Shown here: positions 344 through 54,045 of the stretch, in pieces
Numbering within the stretch: the stretch's first letter is position 1
Layout of the letters: every line of letters begins with the position of its first letter
From: Myxococcaceae bacterium JPH2
Lineage (GTDB): Bacteria; Myxococcota; Myxococcia; Myxococcales; Myxococcaceae
Direction: 5' to 3'
DNA length: 64,000 nucleotides
Assembly (NCBI GenBank): GCA_016458225.1
Contig: JAEMGR010000003.1
Location: 620,001 to 684,000 of the forward strand
The notes under the pieces: generated by a model
The model's database searches: none
What the model was told of the DNA's origin: nothing
What the model saw: only the letters and a program-made list of their open reading frames with translations
Program-made: the position numbers and the translations under genes

Positions 344-733
344 TCAACCGAGCAGCGCGGCGATGATGGCGATGAGGGGCGGCCCCGCCTGCATCATCGC
401 CGCGCGCAGGAACCGGCGGTCGCTGCTCAACAGCACCGCCCCCGCGCCCACCATGACGGCCATGGTGAAGAGCACCAGCGTGCGCCCCGGCACCACCGCG
501 CCGGCCAGCACCAGGCCCACGCCCACCAGCGCGCCCACCGCGAGGAAGAGATTGTAGAAGCCCTGGTTGTAGGCCATCCGGCTCAACGTGTCGGCATCCG
601 CCTGCGAGGCAATGCCGAAGCGCTTCCACGTCGCGGGCTTGCGCCACAGCACGCTCTCGAACGCGAAGAAGAGGATGTGGAGCAGGGCGGCAAGCCCCGT
701 CGCGACCAGGGACACGGCGAGAAGGACGGACAC
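344..733 (-). CDS. DUF1304 family small membrane protein
   Basis: A 129-residue protein with four predicted membrane helices. It contains 'ILFFAFESVLWRKP' near the N-terminus and 'NQGFYNLFLAVGALVG' in the middle, which match DUF1304 proteins (about 120 residues, function unknown). I chose the GTG at 733, which places the first helix at the N-terminus and gives the usual family length. An in-frame ATG at 820 would add 29 polar residues and run into the divergent promoter region. The gene points away from the TetR gene 98 bp upstream, so control by that TetR protein is a reasonable inference. It ends 10 bp from the end of the MATE gene on the other strand. Confidence 0.72.
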   Translation of the reverse strand: MSVLLAVSLVATGLAALLHILFFAFESVLWRKPATWKRFGIASQADADTLSRMAYNQGFYNLFLAVGALVGVGLVLAGAVVPGRTLVLFTMAVMVGAGAVLLSSDRRFLRAAMMQAGPPLIAIIAALLG

Positions 734-831
734 GGCGGAATCTCCAGGGTGGCGGAAGTGTATGTGTACCGGTCGATACAGTTTACCGGGACCATGGTTC
801 ATCCGGTACGGTCCCGTCAACAGGAGCGAGA
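734..831. promoter_or_regulatory. Divergent promoter region with candidate TetR operator
   Basis: This 98-bp gap separates the divergent DUF1304 and tetR genes. It holds an inverted repeat CGGGACC (787-793) / GGTCCCG (810-816) with a 16-bp spacer, and nested in it TACCGG (784-789) / CCGGTA (803-808). Long-armed inverted repeats between a tetR gene and a divergent target are the usual place for autoregulation. Operator function is inferred. Confidence 0.45.
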
Positions 832-1425
832 ATGGCGCGCACGCGCACCTTCAACACGGATGAGGCCGTTCGCGCGGCGCGGGACCTCTTCTGGGAGCGC
901 GGCTACGAGGCGACGTCGCTGGCGGACCTCGAGGACGCCACGGGCCTGGGGCGCTCCAGCCTCTATCAAGCGTTCGGCAGCAAGCGCGGCCTCTACGATG
1001 CCGCCGTCGAGCACTACCTCCGGCACGTCATCGCGCCGCTGATTGCTCCGCTCGAGGCGCCGGGCGCCACGCGCCAGGACGTCGCGGAATACTTCCGGAC
1101 CCTCTCCGAACGACTGTCGCGTCAGCTCGGCCTGGGCGTCGGGCGCGGCTGCCTCATCCTGCAGACGACCAGCGAGCTGGCGGTTCGGGACGCCGCGGCC
1201 CGTGAGGTCGGGCGCACGTACCGTGAGCGCCTGCTGGCGGCGTTCATCCATGCCCTCACCCCGCCGCGCGGCGCGGGAACGGACGCGGCGAGGGCCACGC
1301 GGGAGCGGCGCGGTCAGCTCCTGGTGGGCGCCGTGACGGCCATCCTGGTCACCACGCGCATCGACCTGAAGGCGGCGCTCGCGCTGTGCCAGGCCACGCT
1401 CGCGGAGGTCGACGCCTGGGCCTGA
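832..1425 (+). CDS. TetR/AcrR family transcriptional regulator
   Basis: A 197-residue protein of normal TetR length. The N-terminal helix-turn-helix spans about residues 8-55: 'AARDLFWERGYEATSLADL' followed by 'GLGRSSLYQAFGSKRGLY'. The C-terminal half has the 'GRGCLILQTTSELA' pattern of the AcrR/TetR_C ligand-binding group. These proteins are mostly repressors released by small hydrophobic ligands. The nearest likely target is the divergent DUF1304 gene, and possibly the MATE gene beyond it. The ATG at 832 directly precedes the HTH and has a purine-rich 'aggagcg' upstream. Confidence 0.88.
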   Translation: MARTRTFNTDEAVRAARDLFWERGYEATSLADLEDATGLGRSSLYQAFGSKRGLYDAAVEHYLRHVIAPLIAPLEAPGATRQDVAEYFRTLSERLSRQLGLGVGRGCLILQTTSELAVRDAAAREVGRTYRERLLAAFIHALTPPRGAGTDAARATRERRGQLLVGAVTAILVTTRIDLKAALALCQATLAEVDAWA

Positions 1426-1530
1426 ACGGCCGCCGCCCGGACGGGTGAACGAGAGAGCCAGACCTTGCGGCCCTCGCACGCCGAGCCGACCTCAAGGGGA
1501 GAACCCCTGCATCTCCCACGAGGGACCGCC

Positions 1531-1998
1531 ATGGCCACCATCGACAACGCCGCCATCCTCCGAGACATCTACCAGGCCTTCAACGACAAGAACGTCCAGC
1601 GCGTGGGCGAGCTGTCCCTCCCCGACGCGCGCATCATCCGAGTCCCCTCGGGCGAGTCGCTGAGCGTCTTCGACGACTTCCAGGGCTGGGCCACCGCCTT
1701 CCCGGACGGCCAGGTCGAGGTCACCCAGATGGTGGCCCAGGGCGACTGCGTGATGGCGGAGATCATCGGGCGGGGCACGCACCTGGGCCCGCTCAGCAGT
1801 CCGCAGGGCCCCATCGCCCCCACCCAGCGCCGCGTGGAGCTGCGATTGGTGGACGTCTACCTCTTCCGAGACGGCAAGGTCACCGGCGGGCGCACGTACT
1901 TCGACGCGATGAGCCTGATGCGGCAGCTCGGCCTGCTGCGCGCGCCCGAGGCCCCGGCCCGCGCAACCTCCGAATCGCGCCCCGAGGCCCGACACTGA
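1531..1998 (+). CDS. SnoaL/NTF2-like fold protein (ester cyclase type)
   Basis: A 155-residue protein. It starts with 'ILRDIYQAFNDKNVQRVGEL', the first helix of SnoaL-like domains, and contains 'VYLFRDGKVTGGRTYFDA', the usual last two strands. The family includes polyketide cyclases, but most bacterial members bind unknown small molecules. The ATG at 1531 is preferred because the family domain begins immediately after it; an upstream in-frame start (1465) would add low-complexity residues. It lies 105 bp after tetR on the same strand and could be co-transcribed. The last 20 residues are Ala/Arg/Glu-rich and probably disordered. The substrate is unknown. Confidence 0.7.
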   Translation: MATIDNAAILRDIYQAFNDKNVQRVGELSLPDARIIRVPSGESLSVFDDFQGWATAFPDGQVEVTQMVAQGDCVMAEIIGRGTHLGPLSSPQGPIAPTQRRVELRLVDVYLFRDGKVTGGRTYFDAMSLMRQLGLLRAPEAPARATSESRPEARH

Positions 1999-2037
1999 GC
2001 CGCGCCGCGGGAGGGCGTCTCGGTTAGAAACGGATCC

Positions 2038-2670
2038 ATGACCTCCCCTGCAGTCGGCCCGACGCCCTACCAGCTCCGCACCCCTCGTCTGCTCCTGCGC
2101 TGCCTGTCCCCTTCGGACGCGGAGGCGCGCAAGGACGCCTTCGACTCCAGCGGCACGCACCTGGATGACCTGTTCCCGCCTCCCCCCGAGGGGCGCATGA
2201 CGCTGGACGCGCACGCCGCCCTGCTGCGGCGATTCCGCGGGAGCTTCGACCTGGACCAGGACCGCTTCTACGGCGCCTTCGAGCCGACCACGGGCAAGCT
2301 CCTGGGCGAGACGGGCGTGCTGCGCCGCGCGGGCATCCGCGCGCTGGAGCTGTCCTACTGGCTGCGCCGCGACGCGGTGGGACAGGGCTACGCCGTGGAG
2401 ATGGCGCGGGCGATGATGAAGGTCGCCTTCGTGTTCGACCAGGTGAGCCGCATGGACCTCACCTGCGACGTGGCGAACACGCAGAGCGCCGGGGTGGCCC
2501 AGCGCCTGGGCTTCACCCTGGAGGGCCGCCTGCGCGACCGGCAGCTCGCGCCCCACCACAAGCGGGGCGACATCCTGTGCTTCACGCTGCTCGCCACCGA
2601 GTACGCGAATCAGCCCGCGCACCACCTGCCCATCGAGGCCTTCGACCTCCTGGGCCGCAAGCTCGGCTGA
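2038..2670 (+). CDS. GNAT family N-acetyltransferase, RimJ/RimL-like
   Basis: A 210-residue protein. It opens with 'YQLRTPRLLLRCLSPSDAEA', the standard start of RimJ/RimL-type acetyltransferases. It has the acetyl-CoA-binding region 'LRRDAVGQGYAVEMARAMM' and the closing 'VANTQSAGVAQRLGFTLEGRLRD'. The reaction would be acetyl-CoA-dependent acetylation of a protein N-terminus or a small amine; the acceptor cannot be predicted. The C-terminus has about 30 extra residues after the fold. It converges with the PRMT-like gene with a single base between the two stop codons. Confidence 0.85.
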   Translation: MTSPAVGPTPYQLRTPRLLLRCLSPSDAEARKDAFDSSGTHLDDLFPPPPEGRMTLDAHAALLRRFRGSFDLDQDRFYGAFEPTTGKLLGETGVLRRAGIRALELSYWLRRDAVGQGYAVEMARAMMKVAFVFDQVSRMDLTCDVANTQSAGVAQRLGFTLEGRLRDRQLAPHHKRGDILCFTLLATEYANQPAHHLPIEAFDLLGRKLG

Positions 2671-2671
2671 G

Positions 2672-3670
2672 TCAGGTCGCGGCCACCCGCCAGCGCCAGC
2701 CGTTCACATCCTCCAGCCGCGGCACGGAGAGCTGAAGGGTGAGCAGGTCGCCCGCGCGCACCGTCTGCGGCTCCACGCGCAGCAGCATCATTCCCCAGTG
2801 CGTGCGCGGCGAGCCGGGCCCGGTGTCGAACGCGTTGTGCTCATCGAACGCGACGCGGAAGTACACGACGAACCCGTCCAGCATCCCGCCCAGCCGGACC
2901 TCGCGTCGGTAGGAGAGCGAGGTCGGAAGCTGCTCGGCGTCCAAGGTGTCCAGGTCCACCGACAGCACGGGCGCGGGGGTGCACAGGAGCGCCTCCACCT
3001 CGTTCTGCCGGATGAGCTTGCGGAAGTACGAAGGCGGCAGCGACGTGTACCGCGTGCGCAGGCTGGAGAAGTCCACCGGCCCCACCTTCTGCGTCCAGAG
3101 GAAGGGCGTGCGGAACTCGGGCCGCAGACAGACGGGCTCGACGAAGAGCTGGAAGCGCGCGGGCAGGATGCGCCCCTTGGGCTTGAGCAGCCGTGTCCGC
3201 GCGTCCACCAGGTTCTCCACCAACCGCTCGTTGAAGAGCGCGTCCCCCAGCTGCTCGTGGATGATGACGTCCACCTTCCGGGGCAGCGCCAACCGCTGGC
3301 TGTGCATGCGGTGGAAGTGGATGCGGCGCGCCAGGCCATTCGCCTCCGCCACGGCCTGCGCCGCGGCGATGATGGGCGAGTGGTCCACCGCGTGGACCTC
3401 GGCGCCTTGGGCGGCGCACAACAGGGCGAGCACCCCGTTGCCCGTTCCCAGGTCCAGCACCGTCTGCCCTGGCGTGACGTGCTCGGTGATGGCCTTTTGG
3501 TAGGCCGTCATCCGCACCCGGTCCGCCAGCATCCGGTCGTGCTCGTAATAGTCGGCGAACTCGCGGGCATTGAGCGCCTTGTCATAGGCGTTCCGAACCC
3601 CGGGCATCCGCACGAGGCGATCCTTGAGCTCCACCAACACCTTCATCGGGACATCCACCAGGTCGAACAT
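2672..3670 (-). CDS. Protein arginine methyltransferase (PRMT)-like SAM enzyme
   Basis: A 332-residue Rossmann methyltransferase. The SAM-binding motif I is 'VLDLGTGNGVLALLCAAQG' (residues 71-89). Three features point to the PRMT family rather than a generic methyltransferase. The N-terminal 'YYEHDRMLADRVRMTAY' matches the PRMT YFxxY-type region. 'HEQLGDALFNE' puts E139 and E148 nine residues apart, exactly the double-E loop spacing that binds the guanidinium group. 'RTHWGMMLLRVE' carries a THW loop (290-292) before the beta-barrel end. Eukaryotic PRMTs methylate protein arginines; the bacterial substrate is unknown. The ATG at 3670 is used because longer forms add basic, low-complexity residues. 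It is divergent from the lrp-type gene. Confidence 0.75.
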   Translation of the reverse strand: MFDLVDVPMKVLVELKDRLVRMPGVRNAYDKALNAREFADYYEHDRMLADRVRMTAYQKAITEHVTPGQTVLDLGTGNGVLALLCAAQGAEVHAVDHSPIIAAAQAVAEANGLARRIHFHRMHSQRLALPRKVDVIIHEQLGDALFNERLVENLVDARTRLLKPKGRILPARFQLFVEPVCLRPEFRTPFLWTQKVGPVDFSSLRTRYTSLPPSYFRKLIRQNEVEALLCTPAPVLSVDLDTLDAEQLPTSLSYRREVRLGGMLDGFVVYFRVAFDEHNAFDTGPGSPRTHWGMMLLRVEPQTVRAGDLLTLQLSVPRLEDVNGWRWRVAAT

Positions 3671-3828
3671 GGTCGCGACTGGTAGGGCCGACGACCGCCG
3701 GGCGGAAGGGCTCGCGAGGGCGGCTGCCCATCCGTGAACAAGCCATGTGTCGCCTGACCGCCGTGGCCCCAACGCCCGCCCTCGCCCCCCATCCCCACGC
3801 GCGTCCGCCCCGCAGCTGTGGCACTATT

Positions 3829-3863
3829 CGTTTGAATGCAAACGGGCTTGCCTTTCAGGCAAG
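3829..3863. promoter_or_regulatory. Two adjacent inverted repeats upstream of the Lrp/AsnC gene
   Basis: CGTTTG (3829-3834) / CAAACG (3839-3844) is a perfect 6-bp inverted repeat with a 4-bp spacer. Three bases on, CTTGCCT (3847-3853) / AGGCAAG (3857-3863) is a perfect 7-bp repeat with a 3-bp spacer. The next 57 bp before the ATG are unusually AT-rich for this genome (ATATAAATT, TATAAAAATAA) and probably contain the promoter. The position suggests an autoregulatory Lrp operator; this is inference. Confidence 0.45.
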
Positions 3864-3920
3864 GGGCATATAAATTCACTGTCCATCGAGAGAAGCGCCT
3901 ATAAAAATAAGGTTCATCTC

Positions 3921-4391
3921 ATGGACGAACTCGACTATCGCATCGTGGAACAACTCCAGCGTGACGGCCGCGCCACGCAGCTGGAGCTGTCTCGCGGCGT
4001 CGGGTTGTCGCAGCCTGCGGTGGCGGAGCGGATCCGCAAGCTGGAGGAGCGCGGGGTCATCACCGGCTACACGGCGCGGGTGGACGCGACGAAGCTGGGC
4101 AAGGACATCACCGCGTTCATCGGGGTGAGCATCGAGCACCCGAAGCACTTCGAGGGCTTCGCGAAGAAGGTGCTCGCGCTGCCCGACGTGCTCGAGGCGC
4201 ATCGGGTGGCGGGGCAGGACTCGTACATCCTCAAGGTGAAGACGGCGAACACGCGGACGCTGGACACGCTCCTCGTGGAGACCCTCCGCACCATCCCCGG
4301 CGTCACCCGAACGAACACCACCATCGTCTTGTCGACCCTCAAAGAGGACACGCATGTGCGCGTCCTTCCCGAGCAGCTGAAAGGAGCCTGA
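3921..4391 (+). CDS. Lrp/AsnC family transcriptional regulator
   Basis: A 156-residue protein of standard Lrp length. The N-terminal winged HTH is 'LDYRIVEQLQRDGRATQLEL' and 'VGLSQPAVAERIRKLEERG'. The C-terminal RAM domain includes 'HRVAGQDSYILKVKTANTR', where amino-acid ligands bind, and 'IPGVTRTNTTIVLSTLKED'. The ATG at 3921 is at the family start; upstream in-frame sequence is AT-rich promoter. The aminotransferase gene begins 3 bases after the stop, so the pair is an operon. The regulator probably senses an amino acid that the enzyme consumes. Confidence 0.9.
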   Translation: MDELDYRIVEQLQRDGRATQLELSRGVGLSQPAVAERIRKLEERGVITGYTARVDATKLGKDITAFIGVSIEHPKHFEGFAKKVLALPDVLEAHRVAGQDSYILKVKTANTRTLDTLLVETLRTIPGVTRTNTTIVLSTLKEDTHVRVLPEQLKGA

Positions 4392-4394
4392 AAC

Positions 4395-5612
4395 ATGAGT
4401 GCGGACGGTATGAGCGCATCCCTCCCCCCTGTGCCGGGCATCCGGCTGGCCCAGCGCATGTCGCGGATGAAGACGTCTGCGGTGCGCGAGATCCTCAAGG
4501 TCGCCGAGCGCCCGGACATCCTGTCGTTCGCGGGCGGGCTGCCCGCGCCCGAGCTCTTCCCGCTGGAGGCCATCGCCGAGGCGCACGCGGAGACGTTCGC
4601 CACGGAGGGCCGCGCCGCGCTCCAGTACAGCACCACCGAGGGCTTCCTGCCCCTGCGTGAGTGGATCGCCGCCGACCTCGGCCGGCGGGGTCGCTCGCCG
4701 CATCCGGATCAGGTGCTGATGACGAGCGGCTCGCAGCAGGGCATCGACCTGGTCGCCAAGGTGCTGCTGGACCCCGGCGACGTGGTGATGGTGGAGAACC
4801 CCAGCTACCTGGCCGCGCTGCAGACCTTCGGCGGCTACGAGGTGGAGTTCGCCACCGTGAACAGCGATGAGCACGGCATGCGCACGGACGACCTGGAGCG
4901 CATGGTGCGCGAGCGGCGCCCGAAGCTCGTCTACCTCATCCCCAACTTCCAGAACCCCTCCGGCACCACGCTGTCGCTGGAGCGCCGCAAGGCGCTGGTG
5001 CGGCTGGCCCAGGAGCACCGCTTCACGATCCTCGAGGACGACCCGTACGGCGAGCTGCGCTTCCGCGGGGAGCACCTGCCGTCGCTCTTCTCGCTGGATG
5101 ACCAGGGCGTGGTCGTCTCGCTCGGCACCTTCTCCAAGACGCTGGCCCCGGGCCTGCGGCTGGGCTGGGTGACGGGCCCGCGCGACATCCTCAAGGGGCT
5201 CACCATCGCCAAGCAGGCCACGGACCTGCACACGGCCACGCTCGCGCAGCGCGCCACCGCGCGGCTCCTGGCCCGCTTTGACTACGCCGGGCACCTGAGC
5301 GCCCTACGCCCCGTCTACGGCGAGCGCGCCACCGCGATGATGACCGCGCTGGAGCGCCACATGCCGGCGGGCACGCGCTGGACGCGCCCCGAGGGCGGCA
5401 TGTTCCTGTGGGTGGAGCTGCCGCGCGGGCTGGACGCCGCCGCGCTGCTGCCCAAGGCCCTGGACCAGAAGGTCGCCTTCGTCCCCGGCGCGCCCTTCTT
5501 CGCCACGCAGCCGCGCACGGAGTTCATGCGCCTCAACTACTCCAACCGCTCGCCCGAGTTCATCGCCGAGGGCATGCGCCGCCTGGGCGCCGTCATCGCC
5601 GAGGCGCGCTAG
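4395..5612 (+). CDS. PLP-dependent class I/II aminotransferase (LysN/2-aminoadipate type)
   Basis: A 405-residue fold-type I aminotransferase. It has 'SFAGGLPAPELFP' at the N-terminus, 'TSGSQQGIDLVAKVLLDPGD' for cofactor binding, 'PNFQNPSGTT', the Asp/Tyr of 'EDDPYGELRF', and the Schiff-base lysine K248 in 'TFSKTLAPGLRLGW'. The domain set matches the 2-aminoadipate / aromatic / valine-pyruvate group related to MocR C-termini, but without a DNA-binding domain. It would move an amino group to 2-oxoglutarate or pyruvate in the cytoplasm; the amino-acid substrate is not certain. It forms an operon with the Lrp-type regulator. Confidence 0.87.
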   Translation: MSADGMSASLPPVPGIRLAQRMSRMKTSAVREILKVAERPDILSFAGGLPAPELFPLEAIAEAHAETFATEGRAALQYSTTEGFLPLREWIAADLGRRGRSPHPDQVLMTSGSQQGIDLVAKVLLDPGDVVMVENPSYLAALQTFGGYEVEFATVNSDEHGMRTDDLERMVRERRPKLVYLIPNFQNPSGTTLSLERRKALVRLAQEHRFTILEDDPYGELRFRGEHLPSLFSLDDQGVVVSLGTFSKTLAPGLRLGWVTGPRDILKGLTIAKQATDLHTATLAQRATARLLARFDYAGHLSALRPVYGERATAMMTALERHMPAGTRWTRPEGGMFLWVELPRGLDAAALLPKALDQKVAFVPGAPFFATQPRTEFMRLNYSNRSPEFIAEGMRRLGAVIAEAR

Positions 5613-5627
5613 TCCCCTCGGGGCTCA

Positions 5628-5682
5628 CCCCGGCCCCACAACGCGCCGCGTCGTCATTCGCGGCGCGCGGGAGGGGCCGGGG
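5628..5682 (+). terminator. Long nested hairpin after the aminotransferase operon
   Basis: The outer arms CCCCGGCCCC (5628-5637) and GGGGCCGGGG (5673-5682) pair perfectly. Inside them CGCGCCGCG (5642-5650) pairs with CGCGGCGCG (5659-5667). The hairpin starts 15 bp after the stop codon. It is followed by 'aagttgaagcttgattc', not a strict T-run. I read it as a transcription terminator. Confidence 0.6.
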
Positions 5683-5819
5683 AAGTTGAAGCTTGATTCA
5701 GGTTTCAGGTGTCTCCGCGCTGGTCAGCGCGTCGGGGGTTGCGTAGCCTGCGCGCAACTTTTCCGGCGGCGGGCGGGCGCAATGCCTCCGCGTGTCGCCC
5801 CACTCGTGGAGAGGCACCG

Positions 5820-6566
5820 ATGCAGCTGAAGGACCTGAAGATCATCGTGACGGGCGGCGCGCAGGGCATGGGCGCGCACTTCGCGGCGCGCATCGCGGAA
5901 GCGGGCGGCCAGGTGGCCGTGGGTGACGTGAACGAGGAGCGCCTCGCCGCGCTGCCCGCGGGCATCCACCGCCGCAAGCTGGACGTGTCCAGCGAGGAGG
6001 ACATCACGTCCTTCGTGCAGTGGGCGCACGGCGCCATGGGCGGCCTCAACGGCCTCATCAACAACGCGGGCATCCTGCGCGACGCGCTGCTCGTGAAGAA
6101 GGACCGGACCACCGGCCAGGTGAAGAAGCTCTCCACCGCGGACTGGAACGCCGTCATCGGCGTCAACCTCACCGGCGCCACGCTGATGGTGCGCGAGGTG
6201 GTGGCGAAGATGGCCGAGACGGACCAGGGCCCCGGCGTCATCGTCAACATGTCGTCCATCGCGCGGCACGGCAACCGCGGGCAGTCCAACTACGTGTCCG
6301 CCAAGGCCGCGCTCGCCGCCAACACCGTCACGTGGTCGCGCGAGTTCGCCCCGTTCCGCATCCGCGTGGGCGCCGTGGCCCCGGGCATGATTGAGACGCC
6401 CATGACCCAGGGCATGAACCAGAAGGCCCGCGACGCGCTGGTGGCCAGCATCCCCGTGGGCCGCATCGGCGTGCCCGAGGACATCTGGGTCGCCGTGAAG
6501 TTCATCATCGAGTGCGACTACTTCAACGGCCGCACCATCGACGTGGACGGCGGCCTCAACTTCTAG
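5820..6566 (+). CDS. Short-chain dehydrogenase/reductase (FabG-like)
   Basis: A 248-residue classical SDR. It has the cofactor loop 'IIVTGGAQGMGAHFA' (TGxxxGxG), 'LINNAGI', the active-site serine in 'NMSSIA' (145/146) and YxxxK with Y158 and K162. 'VAPGMIETPM' and the C-terminal 'FNGRTIDVDGGLNF' are typical of 3-oxoacyl-ACP reductases and 3-hydroxyacyl-CoA dehydrogenases. An aspartate (GD) after strand 2 suggests a preference for NAD(H). The ATG at 5820 follows a 'ggagagg' ribosome binding site; longer in-frame starts add Arg-rich sequence. It appears monocistronic. The substrate is undefined. Confidence 0.87.
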   Translation: MQLKDLKIIVTGGAQGMGAHFAARIAEAGGQVAVGDVNEERLAALPAGIHRRKLDVSSEEDITSFVQWAHGAMGGLNGLINNAGILRDALLVKKDRTTGQVKKLSTADWNAVIGVNLTGATLMVREVVAKMAETDQGPGVIVNMSSIARHGNRGQSNYVSAKAALAANTVTWSREFAPFRIRVGAVAPGMIETPMTQGMNQKARDALVASIPVGRIGVPEDIWVAVKFIIECDYFNGRTIDVDGGLNF

Positions 6567-48983: not shown

Positions 48984-49823
48984 ATGAAGACGGTCATATT
49001 CGCCTGCGTGCACAACGCCGGGCGCTCACAGATGGCCGCGGCATTCTTCAACCTCCTGGCCGACCCCGCGAAGGCTCGCGCGGTCTCCGCGGGGACACAG
49101 CCCGCGGAGAAGGTCCATCCGGAAGTGCAGGCCGTCATGGCCGAAGCCGGGGTGGATCTCTCGCAGGCCAGGCCGCAGCGATTGACGGATGAGCTGGCGC
49201 GAGGAGCAGCAAGGCTCATCACCATGGGCTGCGGCGAGGCCTGCCCGTTCGTCCCCGGACTCCAGCGTGAAGACTGGGGACTGGAAGACCCGAAGGGAAA
49301 ACCACGGGAGCGAGTGCGAGTGATTCGCGACGACATCCGCGCACGAGTCGCGGCCCTGGTCCTGCGCGAGGACTGGAGCAAAACGGGGCACGTGTTCCGC
49401 CCCGCACGTCAGGAAGACCGTGCAGGCATTGAAACAATGCTGCGCACAGCGGGGCTCCCCACCGCAGGGGTAGCGGATCACCTGCCGAACTTCCTCGTGG
49501 CGGAGCACGCCGGAGAATTGGTCGCGGCAGCAGGCCTGGAGCATCACGGAACAAGCGCCCTGCTTCGCTCCGTCGTCGTCCGAGCCGACCACCAGGGAAC
49601 CGGGCTCGGCGCGGCACTGGCCCGAGCCCAACTCGACCTCGCCACGAAGCGAGGCTGCGACGCCGTCTTCCTCCTGACCACCACAGCCGCCAACTACTTC
49701 GAGCGTTTCGGCTTCATCCGAACCGACCGAGCCAGCATGCCGGAGGAACTGCACGCCTCAGAAGAACTGCGAGGTGCATGTCCCGCCAGCGCCACCGTCA
49801 TGAGGCACACGCACTCTGCATGA
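48984..49823 (+). CDS. Fusion: ArsC (LMW-phosphatase type) + ArsN2-like GNAT
   Basis: A 279-residue two-domain protein. Residues 1-130 are an arsenate reductase of the low-molecular-weight phosphatase type: the CX5R loop 'CVHNAGRSQ' (C8, R14) and the second redox pair in 'MGCGEACPFVPG'. Residues 135-260 are a GNAT acetyltransferase ('VVVRADHQGTGLGAALARAQ', 'TAANYFERFGFIRTDRASMP'), the pattern of ArsN2. ArsC makes arsenite; ArsN may acetylate an organoarsenical such as arsinothricin, or another product. The fused form could channel the product. No arsR or arsenite pump is adjacent in the window. Confidence 0.88.
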   Translation: MKTVIFACVHNAGRSQMAAAFFNLLADPAKARAVSAGTQPAEKVHPEVQAVMAEAGVDLSQARPQRLTDELARGAARLITMGCGEACPFVPGLQREDWGLEDPKGKPRERVRVIRDDIRARVAALVLREDWSKTGHVFRPARQEDRAGIETMLRTAGLPTAGVADHLPNFLVAEHAGELVAAAGLEHHGTSALLRSVVVRADHQGTGLGAALARAQLDLATKRGCDAVFLLTTTAANYFERFGFIRTDRASMPEELHASEELRGACPASATVMRHTHSA

Positions 49824-50976: not shown

Positions 50977-52608
50977 TCAAGGGTAGATGACTGAGAGCCT
51001 GCCGTCCTTGATGCCCCAGACCTTCTTCAATCCGTCAATCACATGCTCGGAGAACTGAACCCTGGCCTCCTCGACCGTCACGGGAGTGTCTTCCAAGTTC
51101 AAGACGATCCTGTCCGCTTGCCCCGAGTTCACCTTTGAGTCCTTGACGGAATCCCAAATATTCCGAATCCGCCGCCCGCTGGGAGCGTAGCAGTCTGCAT
51201 ATTCGCCATTGATCTTATAGTCGGGCGACTTCCCATTGGGTTTGAGCGACGGGTTCTGCTCCACGTCATATCCATTCTCCGCGAGAATCTCCGCAGACTC
51301 ATTCTCACGCTGAATGGCCCTGATATTGGCCGGGTCCTTGTCATTTGGCCCTGGAGCGCTCTTCGAGCCTGAGAGTCGGCCTCTCGACTTCACGAGGCCA
51401 GATTCGTCACCCCCCACGTGATTGAGCACCACCATCGCTCCGGCGCCAGCTTCCCCTATGACGGTGGCCAACTGCCCAGTCGGAATCATGAGCCGCTCAA
51501 TCACCATGGCCCCCTCCACAGAAAGGGAGAGAACCGGGACCATCGACTCCGCGCCGCCCACTCCTGAAGCGACCACGGTCGTCGTGCCCTTGGCGACACC
51601 GCCACAGGCTGAGAGAGCAGCCACAAGCTTCGCAACGGCTTGAATCTGCTCGCCTCGCGTCATCTCCTGGAAGCGCTCCAGATACTCGGGCGACGAGGCA
51701 ACCAGAGCCGCTACCCCGGCAGGCAGTTGTTTCAACTCCAGGAAGCTATCTACGGGGTAGGTGAGGAACTTCCCAATCGCCATGGTCAACTCGAAAAAGG
51801 CCTCTCCCGCGCCATCCAGTGAACGGCTGATGACGTCCGCGTCGTCGTAGATCTCAGCCAGTGGCCATGTATCGGTGACACGCAGTTGTTCATCCACAGG
51901 CAAGAACAAATCACCGTCCACGACATAGAAGCGTCCCAACTCGAAGCGCATGGCGCGGAATGCCCCGTCCCGCCATTCGATTGGTGCAGCACGCTGTTGT
52001 GTGCGTCCTGTGTAAACCCACGCGAGGTACCCATCTGGACGAAGTACCACCACTCGCTTCGACTTGAGGCGCTCAACACGCTGATTCAACTCGGCACGTG
52101 ACACCGCTCCATGTGCCAGGACTTCGCGCAGCAGGAGAATTGCGCCCATCCGAGGAGGGAAATTCCCCATCGTCAGCCGCTTGTTCATGAAAGCCATCAC
52201 CAGCCGCGCCGACTGATTCGGAGTGAGGGGTCCTTCACCCAAAGGCACCTCGTCCCGAGGCTCCAATCCAGCAAGCAACAGCAATCGCTCGAAGGCGTCA
52301 CTCTGAGCATCCCGGGTGACACCCGCCCGCGGTGACGAGGCCAAGTCTACTTGCGCGACCTCCGTAAGGATGGAGCGCGAGACCTGATGATGACGCAACC
52401 GAGCTGGCTCGCGCGGCATCGACGATGAGGGCACTGAAGGCGATGAGGCGACGCGTGGCGAGTCTTCCTCTCCGCCTGTTCGCAGGGCAAGCACGAAGGC
52501 AGGAGGCGAACCGTAGCTCAGTGAGTGACCAGTCCCGGACCGGGGAGCAACAGAAGCACATCCGGTCACGAGCAGGGCCCAGCACAAAACGAGTGGTTCA
52601 ACGCGCAT
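50977..52608 (-). CDS. SitA-type lipoprotein toxin with CdiA-type nuclease C-terminus
   Basis: A 543-residue protein. The type II signal peptide has a lipobox 'LLVTGC' (C17). It is followed by a 400-residue non-catalytic region typical of SitA carriers, with a hydrophobic Gly/Ala stretch (about 325-400). The C-terminus (about 435-543) begins with 'IRAIQRENESAEILAENGYD', then 'SPDYKINGEYADCYAPS' and 'SGQADRIVLNLED', which match the CdiA C-terminal tRNase group (PD-(D/E)XK-like acidic residues in 'PDYKINGEYAD'). SitA toxins pass between myxobacterial kin by TraA/TraB outer-membrane exchange and kill recipients lacking SitI. Composition is lower in GC at the C-terminus. It overlaps the upstream gene by 11 bp. 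Confidence 0.82.
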   Translation of the reverse strand: MRVEPLVLCWALLVTGCASVAPRSGTGHSLSYGSPPAFVLALRTGGEEDSPRVASSPSVPSSSMPREPARLRHHQVSRSILTEVAQVDLASSPRAGVTRDAQSDAFERLLLLAGLEPRDEVPLGEGPLTPNQSARLVMAFMNKRLTMGNFPPRMGAILLLREVLAHGAVSRAELNQRVERLKSKRVVVLRPDGYLAWVYTGRTQQRAAPIEWRDGAFRAMRFELGRFYVVDGDLFLPVDEQLRVTDTWPLAEIYDDADVISRSLDGAGEAFFELTMAIGKFLTYPVDSFLELKQLPAGVAALVASSPEYLERFQEMTRGEQIQAVAKLVAALSACGGVAKGTTTVVASGVGGAESMVPVLSLSVEGAMVIERLMIPTGQLATVIGEAGAGAMVVLNHVGGDESGLVKSRGRLSGSKSAPGPNDKDPANIRAIQRENESAEILAENGYDVEQNPSLKPNGKSPDYKINGEYADCYAPSGRRIRNIWDSVKDSKVNSGQADRIVLNLEDTPVTVEEARVQFSEHVIDGLKKVWGIKDGRLSVIYP

Positions 52609-54045
52609 TGTCCACCCCCACGCCCACCGAAACAAATCTGCCAGGAGTCAAGGGGCCGTCTGCCTTCCGGAAAAGCAACGTACCGCCCTGTCCCTGAACA
52701 TAGAGTTTCCCAGCGAGTCGCCAGCGAAGTTCCCCCGAGAGCAAGGAGCGACTCTCCGGCTGGCCGAGTCCTGCCGCCAGCGTGGCAATGGCCACCTCGA
52801 GACGCCTATCAGCAAGCTGCAGCGAGAGGCGTCCATCTGCGTCCACGCGTCCCCAGGAGAAGATTTCCACCGCAAACGAGAAGCCCAGGTGGCGCTGCAG
52901 CAATCCGCCGAGTCGCACGGCATCCCAATCGACATTGGACTCCACGTATGCGGAGTATCCAGCGCGGAACGGCGCTTCCACCAATGACAACCCGGAAGGC
53001 CCTGCCGCGACAAAGCGCGCCAACTCGTAGTCTGGACCGAAGAATCCCTGGTGGAAGCCTCCGTGCTGCCTGCGAACTTCGAGACGCAGGCGAGCGTTCA
53101 GCGTCGCCGTCTCCACGTCCGCGCCAATACCAGCCACAGCCCCCCATGCGCCACCGTGCCCGGGCCGACCACCCCACCCAGCACATGCAATTCGAAGCCC
53201 TGACGCACCAGCAGCACGGCCGCCCCATCCACATGGGCCAGCGACACCTTGGGGGAAGCATCCTCGACGGTCCCCCAGTCATGAACCGCGGACAAGGACA
53301 GGGTGTACCTCGACGGCTGTCTCGGCGGACCGAGAAGCACATGCTCGACATCCAGTTCGAACTCGGCCCCGACAAGCCGAGCCCCCAGAACATCCGATGA
53401 GAAGGCCTCGACATAGAGAGGCCCGACTGTTCCCGTCAGAAAGCCTCCTGCGGGGTGGTAATCTGGATTGATTCGATTGGAGTAGCGACGCACGAGATGT
53501 CCGGACAACAAGCTGTAGCCATCCAACGCACCCAGCCAGAGCCCAAGCGGCGCGGAGTCCGAGCCGATCTTGAGAGCACGCACCCACTGGCCCCAATCAG
53601 AGAGGCTGTCCCAGTCCTCCCTCCTGAAGATCCCTGCATGGGGCTCGTCTCCCCACAATCGAAGTCTCACGGGAGCCCCCAGGTTGACCCCGACCCCTGG
53701 CCCACCATCAATCACGAGCGTCGGCTCAACCTCAACGAATCCATCGCCCTGAGCAACACGGCTACGCGGCACGAGAACTCGCATCCGTGTGTCCATTCGG
53801 ACCAGCGCATGCCACCGATCCGTCGAGGAACTGGCTGGCCCCATTGCCAATCCGGGCTGGAGTGGGGATTCGGCCTCGGGAGGTGCGTCTCACAGCACAG
53901 GCAGTGGGCCCACCATCTCCGTCGAAGCGCCGACATCCGGCAATCCCTGCCCAGTGGGTGTAGATTCCCCGGCGTCCTCCGCCCAGCCCATTCGCGCAAA
54001 CAGCAGCAGCCATAGCCCGACAACCTGACTTCGACGAATGAACAT
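52598..54045 (-). pseudogene. sitB-position gene, interrupted by a stop and a frameshift
   Basis: A signal peptide ('VVGLWLLLFARMGWA', start ATG 54045, with 'gaggg' upstream) opens a frame that meets TGA at 53892-53890. The same frame then continues as a strand-rich protein (53850-53098). At the G6 tract (C53140-C53145 on plus) reading shifts: the downstream frame 53137-52598 carries on with 'GADVETATLNARLRLEVRR' and ends inside the start of the toxin gene. Adding one G would join the parts. The product would be about 480 residues, secreted, beta-rich. The position immediately before sitA suggests SitB, but I cannot confirm the family. Alternative: sequencing errors in a functional gene. Confidence 0.6.

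Follow-up and report, generated by a model that had tools for sequence, protein, structure and literature searches.

The gene P0002, carried by the 9.0-Mb genome of Myxococcaceae bacterium JPH2, encodes a protein with the predicted fold of the PRMT family of arginine methyltransferases and with both glutamates and the THW loop of their active site. It runs from position 3670 (ATG) to position 2672 (stop included) on the minus strand of the 64,000-nucleotide stretch of DNA analyzed here (the window), and its 332-amino-acid product was assigned by profile, PDB match, and structural model. Judging from sequence and model together, P0002 probably methylates an arginine-type group, and its working form would most likely be a ring-shaped dimer. 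The full reading, held with modest confidence, is that P0002 is a dimeric, SAM-dependent guanidino-N-methyltransferase of the PRMT superfamily that would act on arginine in a protein or peptide. Its activity is predicted, and the regulatory layer first suggested for it is hypothetical.

The start codon is backed by an N-terminus, MFDLVDVPMKVL, that resembles the start of the paralog family, MPNLLDLPRQAL. GC content of the gene is 0.686 overall and 0.937 at third positions, inside the range of its seven neighbors. P0002 is under purifying selection: dN/dS between the genus's two genomes is 0.13, and the 11 residues at which their copies differ all lie outside the catalytic motifs.

P0002 matches PRMTs in profile, sequence, and predicted fold

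Profile searches with P0002 returned the generic model Methyltransf_25 as the best Pfam match (41.1 bits), yet PRMT_C (PF22528) scored 38.8 bits, above its cut-off of 27. Generic methyltransferase Pfams, which cover the N-terminal half, scored equal to PRMT_C. The preliminary description, which proposed a PRMT-like enzyme, had named placement in a non-PRMT family as a result that would speak against it, and the search did not give such a placement in the sense intended. The top PDB sequence match was PRMT6 (E value of 1.9e-32, residues 34-304 of 332), and the best 60 of 110 PDB matches at E≤1 consisted of 59 named arginine methyltransferases and 8rbk, entered as "MGC151858 protein". When P0002 and 31 bacterial relatives were combined into a profile, it reached PRMT6 at 4.4e-77, and PRMT_C was matched at E≤1e-3 by all 32 of these proteins.

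A confident AlphaFold2 model of P0002 built from 32 sequences had a pLDDT of 93.4 and a pTM of 0.88, and the best 50 of its 1946 Foldseek matches were all PRMTs. Comparison with PRMT2 gave a whole-fold match of Z 30.9 at 26% identity (303-307 residues aligned, rmsd 2.6-2.9), and alignment to PRMT chains extended across residues 21-332, the C-terminal barrel included. The structural result that the preliminary description had named as speaking against it, a model whose double-E loop does not face the SAM pocket, was addressed through this whole-fold match. Gaps in the PRMT6 alignment at the dimerization arm amounted to one or two residues, and the model places helices there within residues 201-216. 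By sequence and prediction, P0002 is thus composed of a Rossmann SAM domain, a double-E loop, a barrel, a dimerization-arm region, and a THW loop, and the PRMT-like character first proposed for it is supported by all three lines of comparison.

Other methyltransferase families gave partial matches. CpaM, a corrinoid-associated methyltransferase and the best NCBIfam match (NF043040), was rejected at 60.8 bits against a threshold of 180 and covered residues 50-169 only. The ribosomal protein L11 methyltransferase PrmA was likewise rejected (TIGR00406, 29.9 bits against 183.15); the Pfam PrmA model scored 36.8 bits (cut-off 22) over residues 60-168 only. A match to the MADS defense protein mad2 (mads_2, 46.4 bits) was confined to the Rossmann part (275-393 of 492).

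Set A3 comprised P0002 and 31 of 44 extracted loci, with L094-L096, L098, L106-L111, L113, and L114 left out. Four of its 32 members, identified by eye as L084, L086, L088, and L093, have a C-terminal SEC-C motif.

Active-site motifs are conserved in a small, scattered clade

Motifs were compared with the PRMT consensus as given in an excerpt of PMC12925635, and conservation was assessed in a census of 11 sequences: P0002, L062, L071 (Planctomycetota), L072 (Aquibaculum), L075 (Litoribacter), and L076-L081, six sequences of Acidimicrobiia-type Actinomycetota. L083, whose frame ends early (281 amino acids), was excluded from the site census and from the trees. This clade is small and scattered, with at least 11 sequences in five phyla, the list being a lower bound from contigs scanned with one short peptide pattern.

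P0002 agrees with the consensus at motif I, post-I (VHAVD), motif III, both glutamates, and THW. Motif I (VLDLGTGNG, residues 71-79; 3434 to 3460, minus strand), a predicted SAM-binding site, retains G75, G77, and G79 in 11/11 clade sequences. At the start of helix Y/Z (HDRMLADRVR, residues 44-53; 3512 to 3541, minus strand), H44, M47, D50, and R53 are invariant. M47 and R53 are taken, by analogy and identical spacing, as counterparts of M127 and R133, which contact SAM in PRMT2 according to the portion of PMC8623767 available. A proline, P170, stands at the presumed cis-Pro place.

The double-E loop (HEQLGDALFNE, residues 138-148; 3227 to 3259, minus strand) and the THW loop (residues 290-292; 2795 to 2803, minus strand) are located as first described, with E139 and E148 nine residues apart. 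That spacing is uninformative by itself, because P0002 contains 18 glutamates and an E-x8-E pair arose in 60.6% of 20,000 composition shuffles; THW arose in 0.64% of them. The glutamate pair and THW nevertheless go beyond chance, since an alignment to PRMT6 over nearly the whole protein puts them at matching positions and since both glutamates, T290, and W292 are kept in all 11 clade sequences. The middle residue of THW, H291, is histidine in 4/11 and serine in 7/11, and the P0002 context is THWGM as against the consensus THWxQ. Compared with the double-E consensus SExMGxxLxxExM, HEQLGDALFNERL has both glutamates, the glycine, and the leucine, but histidine replaces serine and leucine replaces both methionines.

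The type I motif YFxxY of helix X was not found in P0002; the aligned residues 34-38 read NAREF, in which the last aromatic, F38, is the sole match. Neither was the type II (PRMT5) motif PLxxN found at this place. Available text of PMC8623767 describes the double-E glutamates of PRMTs as binding the guanidinium and the tyrosines of YFxxY as touching the second glutamate in PRMT2. As YFxxY is missing, a product type is not assignable to P0002. N34 and F38 are invariant in 11/11, and together with the loop census they give the clade its own signature, an N-x-x-x-F helix X and an HEQxG loop.

The dimerization-arm region (residues 183-220; 3011 to 3124, minus strand), with borders that we set by reference to the model and to the alignment with PRMT6, contains W192 and predicted helices at 201-210 and 213-216.

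PRMT-fold genes are patchily distributed in bacteria

PRMTs had been called rare in bacteria, a statement that stands for the P0002 clade and not for the fold as a whole. Matches to P0002 above 45% identity were present in 2 of 96 family genomes, both of its genus, the other copy (L062, genome G001) being 97% identical. PRMT_C was found at E≤1e-3 in 52/189 Myxococcota genomes, 32 of them above the curated cut-off, and in none of 14 control genomes at the same threshold. Distant P0002 matches (E≤1e-15) occurred in 24/289 genomes of the class of L072 (Alphaproteobacteria) and in 5/295 of the class of L075, and in each class only the center genome had a match below 1e-50. The class of L076 had matches at E≤1e-10 in 8/198 genomes, four of them below 1e-50, one being the center itself. 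PRMT-fold genes in bacteria are therefore patchy rather than very rare.

A mobile or phage origin of P0002 was rejected: no match was found in phage records (E≤1e-5), the 151 pattern matches in viral contigs included no gene for a relative, and the two plasmid matches were weak (27% and 40% identity). No paper on a myxobacterial PRMT was found by title among the open-access literature matches listed.

In the class of L072, L172-L176 have PRMT-like matches within long open frames of 459-628 amino acids, which may represent extra domains. Within the Myxococcaceae, L053, L056, L057, and L059 represent another PRMT-like type that has TETxDCGLxGE loops, with SHW replacing THW.

Genomic neighborhood of P0002

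As first described, P0002 is divergent from an Lrp/AsnC regulator gene (3921 to 4391, plus strand) followed by a class I/II aminotransferase gene (4395 to 5612, plus strand); on its other side lies a convergent GNAT acetyltransferase gene (2038 to 2670, plus strand), all three assigned by Pfam. The Lrp and aminotransferase pair was kept in all eight family relatives sampled, and the stretches taken at those eight loci contained no P0002 match at E≤1e-15. Because the pair persists in relatives without a P0002 match, this context says little about P0002, and the Lrp neighbor is probably incidental and functionally unlinked. By eye, a TATAA...AAGG stretch precedes the Lrp start in 8/8 relatives and a CATATAA stretch does so in some. 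A link between Lrp and P0002 was rejected on the presence of this conserved block at loci without a P0002 match, and the block probably belongs to Lrp. An AT-rich block with small inverted repeats at 3829-3917, before Lrp and partly conserved by eye in L163-L170, is a possible site of Lrp self-regulation.

Seven neighbors (344 to 6566) were scanned with Pfam. None of them is a polyketide, NRPS, or RiPP core gene, and neighbors of metabolic kinds were a SnoaL-like protein, the GNAT, the aminotransferase, and an SDR. Twelve clade loci (the window, L062, and 10 outside the genus) were then compared using ORFs of at least 100 amino acids at E≤1e-8. SDR genes lie near the gene in five of the 12, adjacent in L072 and L077 and at a greater distance in the window, L062, and L083; with the P0002 family and overlapping ORFs set aside, two other families recur, each in 2/12. 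SDR genes are very common, and for this reason their recurrence is given little weight, although it leans slightly toward a role in metabolism. In two Actinomycetota loci an enoyl-CoA hydratase gene is directly upstream of the clade member (L081:5077-5775 and L083:4996-5847).

Elsewhere in the window, a 552-amino-acid ORF at 50977-52635 (minus strand) has a lipoprotein-like start by eye and a C-terminal CdiA_C toxin domain (57.8 bits), and sits where GC is lower, at 0.59-0.64 (50-55 kb). An ORF at 48984-49823 (plus strand) fuses a low-molecular-weight phosphatase-type domain to a GNAT acetyltransferase.

A degenerate paralog is conserved in the Myxococcaceae

The genome of P0002 also encodes, on another contig, a PRMT-like paralog of 39% identity (L064:5998-6996; G000:C5:446944-447933), with orthologs such as L066, L067, L068, and L061. 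By similarity, an ortholog is present in 61 of 96 family genomes, 59 of them outside the genus. Among 31 copies read, 29 from those 59 genomes, E148 is replaced by alanine or threonine and both W292 and F38 are lost in every one, and 10 retain the first glycine of motif I. D50, R53, G77, G79, and H138 are kept in 31/31 and E139 in 29/31. The paralog is constrained (dN/dS of 0.054 between two genomes) and its predicted fold is PRMT-like (pLDDT 88.5, Z 28.6). PRMT_C scores 22.9 bits on this genome's copy, under the cut-off, and lies above it on several orthologs. A wax-ester synthase/DGAT gene adjoins the paralog (Pfam on L002 and L066; a recurring ORF in 5/7 loci). Between the two, several loci have an ORF of about 270 amino acids, which in L066 had no Pfam match.

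In a tree of 43 rows, P0002 was placed next to the degenerate clade (95/85), a placement that was no longer resolved once the arm and N-terminus were removed. On these sequences, the degenerate clade is a possible sister of the P0002 clade and likely descends from an intact ancestor. P0002 itself may be an old family paralog lost elsewhere, or else an import.

T. brucei PRMT1 requires a catalytically dead paralog, according to excerpts of PMC10908127 and PMC12925635, and P0002's genome similarly has a motif-intact copy together with a paralog lacking the second glutamate and the tryptophan of THW. By this analogy, the genus's intact copy would pair through its arm with the degenerate one, the latter having a separate, non-catalytic role in other Myxococcaceae; we consider this improbable. 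In its arm (183-220), P0002 shares 42% identity with degenerate copies versus 20% with other intact ones. The helices that would receive the arm show 30% identity to degenerate copies versus 38% to intact ones, the arm is 37% identical to that of its own genome's paralog, close to the 34% for L072, and the sister placement is unsettled, all of which keep the probability low. Moreover, unlike the trypanosome pair, the degenerate ortholog occurs without an intact copy in 59 other family genomes, so such pairing is not general.

Proposed function and alternatives

By analogy with PRMT2, SAM would be held in the Rossmann pocket by motif I, M47, and R53, while E139 and E148 would pin and activate the guanidinium and the THW loop would complete the pocket. 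Transfer of the methyl group to an omega nitrogen would yield monomethyl-arginine at the least. The dimer would form through residues 183-220; in the portion of PMC10908127 available, dimerization is apparently needed by type I PRMTs for normal activity. The substrate would be an arginine of a protein or peptide encoded elsewhere, which is preferred because the gene lacks a consistently conserved neighbor. Counting against this reading are NAREF in place of YFxxY, histidine in place of serine in the double-E loop, and the change of the THW histidine to serine in most of the clade.

The main rival keeps the chemistry and changes the substrate: P0002 would methylate free arginine or another guanidine and feed a metabolite rather than mark proteins, which we regard as possible though on the unlikely side. 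SznE is a PRMT-like enzyme that methylates free arginine, and this capacity, like the SDR genes in 5/12 clade loci, also weighs against a protein-arginine substrate. The metabolic kinds of window neighbors agree with such a role, as does the account in accessible text of PMC12637814 that SznE and a putative homolog of 31% identity in the saskemycin cluster, both bacterial arginine methyltransferases, serve antibiotic pathways. It is disfavored by the lack of polyketide, NRPS, or RiPP core genes among the seven neighbors at 344-6566 and by the lack of any neighbor other than SDR in more than two clade loci. The arm region and barrel are also kept, although a small-molecule enzyme could retain both.

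More doubtful is a reuse of the fold on a non-guanidine target, such as an N- or O-methylation reaction of lipid metabolism or of another pathway. That the fold drifts is shown by the related Myxococcaceae clade, which has lost E148, W292, and F38 and is still constrained; its wax-ester synthase/DGAT neighbor, the lipid-type neighbors of the P0002 clade (SDR in L072 and L077, enoyl-CoA hydratase in L081 and L083), and the serine-to-histidine and THW-to-TSW changes within that clade point the same way. Yet both glutamates are present in 11/11 sequences of the clade, and it is difficult to account for this unless the ligand resembles guanidinium. It is extremely improbable that P0002 is a generic class I methyltransferase, and not a PRMT, carrying E-x8-E and THW by chance. 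The frequency of E-x8-E in shuffles (61%), the slightly higher score of Methyltransf_25 than of PRMT_C, and CpaM as best NCBIfam match would fit it, but CpaM falls far below threshold over a partial span, and a chance motif in a non-PRMT protein was ruled out by PRMT_C, the PRMT6 alignment, and the whole-fold match at Z 30.9. The PRMT-superfamily enzyme acting on protein or peptide arginine is the reading that we favor.

Relation to known PRMTs and implications

P0002 resembles the type I enzymes PRMT6 and PRMT2 in its Rossmann-barrel-arm order, motif I, double-E, and THW, with 26-29% identity over ~300 residues; it differs from them in being bacterial, in lacking YFxxY, and in having histidine for serine in SExMG. 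Likened by description and not by sequence, it shares with the SznE-type enzymes of streptozotocin and saskemycin that these are bacterial arginine methyltransferases (PMC12637814, in part); theirs lie in biosynthetic clusters, whereas the P0002 gene does not visibly do so. Among earlier bacterial PRMTs, an excerpt of the review PMC10117894 mentions Rv1988 from M. tuberculosis as well as two predicted ones from L. pneumophila. Compared by description, they too have arginine methylation ascribed to a bacterial enzyme; unlike P0002, they are described in that excerpt as host-directed or of unknown function. Other myxobacterial PRMT-fold proteins, with SEWxGH, HELLN, or TETxD loops, have PRMT-like motifs and belong to the same phylum, at 27-35% identity to P0002. 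One of them, the SEWLGH protein L035, differs from P0002 in keeping YFxxY and is closer to PRMT6 (8.7e-51).

The PRMT fold in bacteria is already known; what is added here is the P0002 clade and its decayed relative. The distribution corrects a view of the fold as almost absent from bacteria. If active, P0002 would offer a compact enzyme of the PRMT fold from a genus that can be cultured, and the related clade that lacks the second glutamate and the THW tryptophan would serve as its natural control. The interest lies mainly in this natural pairing of an intact with a decayed active site, which allows two questions to be tested: whether PRMT-type methylation of protein arginines is used by bacteria, and what role the fold has after loss of the arginine pocket.
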